Assembly (NCBI GenBank): GCA_913057135.1
Contig: CAJXNM010000012.1
Span: forward strand, 1 to 64,000
Length of the DNA: 64,000 bases
From: an uncultured Halieaceae bacterium
GTDB taxonomy: Bacteria; Pseudomonadota; Gammaproteobacteria; Pseudomonadales; Halieaceae
Direction of reading: 5' to 3'
A program made the position numbers and the translations under genes. The notes beneath the pieces were generated by a model that saw nothing but the letters and a program-made list of their open reading frames with translations, did no database searches and had not been told where the DNA came from. Shown here in pieces: positions 42,655-44,578 of the stretch (within the stretch, counting starts at the first letter, position 1; each line of letters starts with the position of its first letter).

Positions 42655-42972
42655 TTAGAATGGCATCTTAAAGCCTTCTGGAAGGCTCATGCCGGCGGTG
42701 AGTCCGGCCATTTTTTCCTGTGCCGCCGACTGGGCTTTACGGACCGCGTCATTAACAGCCGCAGCCAGTAAATCCTCGAGCACCTCTTTGTCTTCGCTCA
42801 GGACATCGGGGTCTATGGTGACCCGCTGCACTTCCATGACACCGGACATCTGAATCTGAACCAAGCCGGCACCGGCCTCGCCGGTTACCGAAATGTGTTT
42901 TACCTCTTCCTGTGCCTTGGCAAGCCCCTCTTGCATCTGTTGGGCCTGCTTCATCAAATTACCCAGTTTCAT
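42655..42972 (-). CDS. YbaB/EbfC family nucleoid-associated protein
   Basis: [19 protein letters not shown]...[21 protein letters not shown]; between recR and dnaX. Confidence 0.95.
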
Positions 42973-42985
42973 AAGTCCTCTATGG

Positions 42986-44578
42986 TCATTGGGGGGGACG
43001 GATACTGCCGTCAATGAGCCGGCCATCAAATTCCGCCAGCAGTTGTGCCAATATCGGGTCATCGGCCAGCGCCTGCTCGGCGGCTGACTGGCGAGCAGCC
43101 ATCTGCGCCTGACGGTAGTGATAGGGTGTGGCATCCCCTACCTTACCCACGGTCACCTCGACCTCGACTGGCGCCTCGGCCCACTGACTAAAGGCCAACT
43201 CAAGGGCTTTCGCCTGACGCGGCTGGTAGAGGGTTGCGTTGTTCTCGTCGAGTACAAAGCGGAGCCGACGCCCCTCAACCGCCACCAGTTCACAGTGTAG
43301 GGCGATTGTCTGGGTGATGCCCACTAAGCCCACATTTTCAAACAAGGCGGGCCATGACTGGGGACTTGGAAGGTCCTCGTCCGCTGCCACCACCGGCAGC
43401 ACCGGTGGCTCAGGCTTTTTTGGGCTCGGCTCTCCCTGGGGTGACGCATCTTTGGGCCGCTGATGGCTCTGACCATTATCCGTATCGATGATCGCCGCAG
43501 GGCGAAAAGCCACCATCCGCAGCAGGGTCATCTCTAGCGCTATACGCGGATCATGGGCCTGCATGAGATCGCGCCGACCATTCACTGCAAACTGATAAAA
43601 CAACTGGATGTCATCGAGGTGACTGCGCTGTGCTAACTCGAGGACCCGGGCCTGATCCTGCCAATCGTCAGCGATTGCACCCGGCACCATCTGCGCAATC
43701 GTCATCTGGTGCAACACTGACACCATTTCATCAAGGGTGGCTGTGTAATCGGGGGCATGCTCGGCGATGCGAGCAACCACCGCCAGAATTTGCTCGGGGT
43801 TGTCATCGAGTACCGCCGCCACCAAGTCGAGCACACGACCCCGATCGACGGTACCCAGCATGGCCTGCACATCACTGCTCTGAAGACTACCCGAACCGTA
43901 GCCAATGGCCTGATCGGTGAGGCTCAGCGCGTCGCGCATAGAGCCCGCGGCAGCCCGCGCCAGCAGTCCCAGGGCTTCACGGTCAAAGCCGATGCTCTCT
44001 TGGGTCAGGATGTGTTCAAGGTGCTCGACAATTTGGTCGGGCACCATATTTTTTAGGTTGAACTGCAAACAGCGAGATAGCACCGTTGCGGGCAGCTTCT
44101 GGGGATCGGTGGTTGCCAGCAAAAATTTGGCGTGGGGTGGCGGCTCTTCCAGGGTCTTCAACAAGGCATTGAAACTATGCCCCGATAGCATGTGCACCTC
44201 ATCGATGAGGTAGATTTTGTAGCGAGAGCGGGTCGGTGCATATTGCACGTTATCCAGCAGCTCTCGGGTATCTTCAACTTTGGTGCGCGATGCGGCATCG
44301 ACTTCGATGAGATCAACCGAGCGGTTTTCGGCAATTTCCCGGCAGGTATCGCATTGACCACAAGGCTCCGAACTCACGCCCGTCTCACAATTAAGACAGC
44401 GGGCTAAAATGCGTGCAACGGTGGTCTTACCGACCCCGCGAGTGCCGGTGAACAGATACGCGTGATGCAGTCTGTCATGATCGAGAGCGTTGATGAGCGC
44501 GCGCAGCACGTGCTGCTGCCCGACCATCTCTCGGAAGCTGCCGGGGCGCCATTTGCGCGCAAGAACCTGATAAGTCAT
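42986..44578 (-). CDS. dnaX: DNA polymerase III subunits tau/gamma
   Basis: [46 protein letters not shown], zinc Cys4, [24 protein letters not shown]. Confidence 0.97.
43390..43437 (-). other. Programmed -1 ribosomal frameshift element in dnaX (predicted gamma production)
   Basis: SD-like AGGGAG (43432-43437), 10-nt spacer, slippery A_AAA_AAG (43415-43421), -1 frame GCC then TGA (43410-43412), 6-nt spacer, stem CCACCGG/CCGGTGG (43402-43408 with 43390-43396). Confidence 0.88.

Follow-up and report, generated by a model that had tools for sequence, protein, structure and literature searches.

A predicted E. coli-type programmed -1 frameshift cassette in dnaX of a Luminiphilus-like bacterium and its conservation in Halieaceae

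Results

The dnaX gene and its neighbors

In the window, i.e., the whole 64,000-nucleotide stretch of DNA that was analyzed, dnaX occupies positions 42986..44578 of the minus strand and, as judged from its open reading frame and Pfam domains, encodes the tau subunit of 530 aa as the 0-frame product. The host is a Luminiphilus-like member of Halieaceae, and the closest named relative is an uncultured Luminiphilus (77% identity across the 359 residues of the query); judging by such sequence neighbors, the organism would be a marine gammaproteobacterium of the Halieaceae type. The gene order dnaX-ybaB-recR is the same as in E. coli. The ybaB open reading frame as listed (42655-43134) begins inside dnaX and its likely start (MKLGNLMKQ) is at 42972, right past the dnaX stop codon; therefore, an automatic caller could over-extend ybaB.

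Four Pfam domains were found in tau: AAA/delta2 at residues 20-178, the ATPase lid at 182-230, gamma3 (domain III) at 234-358, and tau_5 (domain V) at 407-526. The last of these (43001..43360, minus strand; PF12170, E 3.3e-13) belongs to tau only. Domain V of tau binds polymerase alpha in E. coli. The DnaB-binding domain IV (PF12168), which is clear in E. coli tau at residues 417-498, was not detected by Pfam in the tau of the window; this model may be narrow, and the firm point is that the protein has too little room for such a domain. Because only 18 residues lie between the slip site described below and domain V, and PF12168 was not detected, helicase coupling may differ in this organism with its short tau. 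Across the same genus, the length of tau ranges from 530 to 702 aa, via a variable linker.

The frameshift cassette

The following elements are all on the minus strand. An internal Shine-Dalgarno (SD)-like hexamer AGGGAG (43432..43437) lies 10 nt upstream of the slippery heptamer A_AAA_AAG (43415..43421), which is placed in codons 386-388 (CCA AAA AAG, P386 K387 K388). A hairpin with a 7-bp stem begins 6 nt after the slippery site and is made of the 5' arm CCACCGG (43402..43408), the loop TGCTG (43397..43401), and the 3' arm CCGGTGG (43390..43396). In the -1 frame, the stop codon TGA (43410..43412) follows GCC and is thus located one codon past the slip. The initial annotation had proposed exactly this cassette, and every base and position in it was right; its short product ending in ...SPKKA after about 389 aa, against 530 aa for tau, also agrees with the sequence. 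The predicted gamma coding region (43410..44578) consists of codons 1-388 in frame 0 followed by GCC TGA in the -1 frame, i.e., 388 residues plus Ala. The break falls between domain III and domain V, so that gamma would keep the clamp-loader domains I-III and lack the polymerase-binding domain V. We also considered internal initiation from AGGGAG and rejected it, as ATG, GTG and TTG are all absent from the next 20 nt.

Among 36 tRNA matches in the assembly, there is one tRNA-Lys, with the anticodon UUU (TTT), i.e., a single tRNA-Lys for reading both AAA and AAG. The tRNA-Lys-CUU was not found among these matches; the assembly is 97.7% complete, and a missed gene is possible. In the absence of tRNA-Lys-CUU, decoding of AAG is weak and the heptamer A_AAA_AAG is prone to slippage (PMC5009743). 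The anti-SD sequence CCTCC is present in three genomes of the same genus; the 3' end of 16S rRNA is absent from the assembly of the window, which is probably missing the rRNA.

Expectation by chance

A pattern scan of the 2.86-Mb assembly returned a single occurrence of AGGGAG-N10-AAAAAAG and three occurrences of AAAAAAGNNTGA, a number equal to that of its reversed control. When the dnaX of the window was resampled synonymously, 9.4% of draws had an in-frame A_AAA_AAR anywhere in the gene; in 1.6%, a -1 stop followed it by no more than 2 codons, and 0.66% had the heptamer, this stop and an SD. The 45-nt stretch downstream of the site has a folding energy of -18.8 kcal/mol, and 24 of 200 dinucleotide shuffles folded equally well (z -1.1). 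Hence, the hairpin of the window by itself is no more than chance, and it is the comparative conservation that carries the case.

Conservation within the genus

The cassette was compared across 34 distinct dnaX genes of the same genus that cover the region. All 34 keep A_AAA_AAG, a -1 stop (TGA or TAG) exactly one codon on, and the stem CCRCCGG...CCGGTGG. Synonymous drift in close relatives, named in the initial annotation as the observation that would count against it, has thus left both the slippery site and the stem intact. The run of A is exactly A6G in every one of the 34, a finding that speaks against transcriptional slippage at the A run, which would yield mixed mRNAs as in Thermus dnaX. 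An A run with a nearby -1 stop suits either mechanism; however, polymerase slippage has been linked to runs of 8-10 A (PMC3711429, PMC5009743), longer than the six A of this site, and it does not depend on an SD or a stem, both of which are conserved at fixed positions here. We consider this explanation very improbable.

In the codon alignment of the genus, with the cassette codons numbered relative to the first Lys, the third base is invariant at codons -1, 0, +1, +2, +5, +8 and +9. The first three of these columns anchored the alignment of the cassette, so that the independent ones are +2, +5, +8 and +9. By comparison, none of the 512 background columns has an invariant third base, and the mean third-base identity is 0.50. 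An explanation of the invariant columns would be that the nucleotides are conserved only via the peptide Lys-Lys-Pro-Glu-Pro-Pro-Val-x-Pro-Val, the heptamer and the stem being by-products of codon choice. Indeed, full conservation in the genus is seen at one Val column of this motif and at the majority of its Pro and Lys columns. However, six amino acids (Pro, Gly, Arg, Thr, Ala and Val) occur at codon -1 and four (Pro, Ser, Thr and Leu) at codon +2, yet the third bases are A and T, respectively, in all 34 genes, whereas elsewhere only 18.5% of codons end in A and 17.1% in T. The -1 stop begins with the T that ends codon +2. Furthermore, even among the 146 conserved background columns with four-fold or higher degeneracy, the third base is invariant in none; conserved Lys columns elsewhere have a third-base identity of only 0.50-0.82; and outside the genus, the peptide differs while the heptamer and the -1 stop persist. 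We therefore regard conservation through the peptide as highly unlikely. With third bases invariant although the residues flanking Lys-Lys vary, the cassette is under selection as a nucleotide sequence. Two species have TAG as the -1 stop, and in them the tau residue at this place changes from Glu to Arg, so that the stop is maintained at the expense of the protein.

The five bases of the loop and the residues encoded by them vary between species, while the arms of the stem stay fixed. Among 16 distinct hairpin sequences of the genus, the 3' arm is invariant, and the 5' arm is CCACCGG in 15 and CCGCCGG in one; this one-sided change (A-U to G-U) is the only variation of the stem, and a two-sided compensatory change was not seen among these 16 sequences. 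Thus, where the initial annotation had looked to conservation of A_AAA_AAG and covariation of the stem, the conservation holds in the whole genus set, and the arms vary too little for covariation to go beyond the one-sided change. Its expectation for the SD held in part: the exact hexamer AGGGAG is not kept, whereas an SD of the GGAG/GAGG type at a fixed distance is. Over 35 sequences of the genus, we counted 28 SD 4-mer matches at the 10-nt spacing and few at other spacings; four of the 35 lack a perfect 4-nt match under the strict rule.

The rest of Halieaceae

In 67 distinct dnaX genes from the rest of the family, an in-frame site was sought after codon 340. The slippery site is present in 57; in 53, a -1 stop follows no more than two codons later, in most cases exactly two. 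The SD core (GGGGAGG or similar) peaks 13-14 nt upstream of the site, versus 10 nt in the genus of the window. Hence, there are two fixed architectures in one family: 13-14 nt with two codons (loci L129-L256) and 10 nt with one codon (the genus of the window). The stems in other genera are strong, and their sequences are unrelated to that of the genus stem, e.g., CGCTACCTG-ATT-CAGGTAGCG in locus L137 and CAGGCACCGG-AA-CCGGTGCCTG in locus L242. Retention of a structure while its sequence is replaced provides good evidence of function. The downstream folding energy is below that of synonymous resamples, with a mean z of -1.9 in the genus, -1.25 in the family, and -1.4 in the order.

An SD and a stem can pause ribosomes, and the site lies between domains; still, a pause at the domain III/V border for folding or partner interaction, with an incidental frameshift, would leave unneeded the slippery heptamer and the -1 stop within two codons that are kept across the family, and it is accordingly a most improbable account. 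Each of the three alternatives leaves at least one conserved element unexplained.

The slippery site is absent in 10 of the 67 genes, which shows that it can be lost. These are locus L235, loci L229, L241, L244-L246 and L248 of genus g40, and loci L252-L254 of genus g18. The sequence of L235 is GGGGAG AAA AAG CCT GCT, in which G_AAA_AAG is kept and the -1 stop is gone; it looks like a decayed cassette.

Order, class and Pseudomonas

For mapping on a FastTree dnaX tree, the cassette was defined as A_AAA_AAG followed by a -1 stop no more than two codons on. It is present in 32 of the 96 sequences of the order and in 4 of the 47 of the class. Presence and absence change at least 34 times on this tree for the cassette and 29 times for the heptamer alone; it should be noted that these counts do not distinguish gain from loss and are inflated by tree errors. 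Some members of the order and class (L189, L195, L278, L288, L306, L307, and L310) have A9-A10 runs at the same place, where transcriptional slippage may operate in place of ribosomal frameshifting.

The dnaX of Pseudomonas aeruginosa is the same gene with the same N-terminal domains, and Pseudomonas relatives are about 65-67% identical; unlike the dnaX of the window, they are without the slippery site, as none of the Pseudomonas loci examined has an in-frame A_AAA_AAR beyond codon 340. This agrees with the published observation that P. aeruginosa dnaX, expressed in E. coli, yields tau alone (PMC3290774).

Because a link between gamma and Pol IV has been reported in E. coli (PMC9522359), we compared the presence of the cassette with that of DNA polymerase IV (dinB, NF002677) across the order. 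Cassette carriers are 29 of the 83 dinB-positive and 2 of the 10 dinB-negative members, and no association was found in independent pairs (median p 1), of which only 5 to 8 were supported, too small a number for a firm answer.

Discussion

Mechanism and significance

Considered together, the elements in the window and their conservation make E. coli-type programmed -1 ribosomal frameshifting in this dnaX, with gamma as the predicted product, very probable. In the proposed mechanism, the anti-SD of the ribosome would pair with AGGGAG while the P and A sites take up AAA AAG, and the hairpin would be encountered where the mRNA enters the same ribosome. Strained from both sides, the pair of Lys-tRNA(UUU) would re-pair one base back (AAA AAG to AAA AAA). 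The shifted ribosomes would incorporate a single Ala before terminating at TGA, producing the 389-aa gamma with the clamp-loader domains I-III, whereas the unshifted ribosomes would proceed to the 530-aa tau, adding the polymerase-binding domain V. We infer the occurrence of the shift, its efficiency, and, as in E. coli, a role of gamma in clamp loading and repair.

The mechanism is textbook knowledge, described for E. coli dnaX since 1990 (references in PMC3711429). No report of dnaX frameshifting in Luminiphilus or Halieaceae was found in the literature covered, which is without most subscription journals, and the strict conservation across Halieaceae seems not to have been described before. 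According to a review, most bacteria outside enterobacteria have not retained frameshift signatures in dnaX (PMC3290774). In our data, the signal is near-universal in the sampled family, and roughly one in three sampled genes from the rest of the order carries it; with the signal this widespread, annotation would miss a second clamp-loader subunit in many marine bacteria. The purpose of gamma has long been controversial even in E. coli (PMC5009743), and the many presence/absence differences between related lineages are natural comparisons for addressing it.

The wholesale replacement of stems, the SD at 10 or 13-14 nt, and the stop one or two codons on allow a more general reading, namely, that selection in Halieaceae keeps the tau/gamma ratio and not any particular sequence, with many gains or losses of the cassette in the order. 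We put this forward tentatively, with somewhat less than even confidence. If true, comparisons between sister lineages that have or lack the cassette could put the debated role of gamma to the test; these would include lineages with a tau too short to hold a DnaB-binding domain IV like that of E. coli.

Comparison with known dnaX recoding

Thermus thermophilus dnaX also produces tau and gamma from one open reading frame at an A run (PMC5009743, PMC3711429). However, the Thermus system has 9 A and depends on slippage of RNA polymerase, whereas the window combines A6, short of a run of 9 or more, with an SD and a stem, and tRNA-Lys-CUU was not found there. In the two-ORF dnaX of Chlorobium and others (PMC3711429), recoding likewise sets the tau/gamma ratio; in those genes, the shift yields tau, whereas in the window tau is the 0-frame product.

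The signal is of the kind known from E. coli dnaX, here represented by K-12 (L337); in frameshifting of this type, gamma is the outcome of about half of translation events. Some features differ: the slip is at codon 430 in E. coli versus 388 in the window; the stem is 11 bp (PMC5009743) versus the perfect 7 bp of the window, with a different sequence; and E. coli tau has 643 aa versus 530 aa in the window, where domain IV was not detected. The features that the initial annotation had named as shared with E. coli are found in K-12 dnaX, i.e., AGGGAG followed after 10 nt by A_AAA_AAG at codons 429-430, and GAG TGA in the -1 frame, with the stop one codon past the slip; a downstream stem-loop is also present, and in both genes the break separates domain III from the tau-specific part. 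Counterpart frameshift systems are known in Salmonella, Vibrio, Neisseria, Yersinia and Serratia (PMC5009743, PMC3711429). The upstream SD in -1 frameshifting is located within 9-14 nt (PMC5009743), a range that includes both the 10 nt of the window and its genus and the 13-14 nt of the rest of the family.
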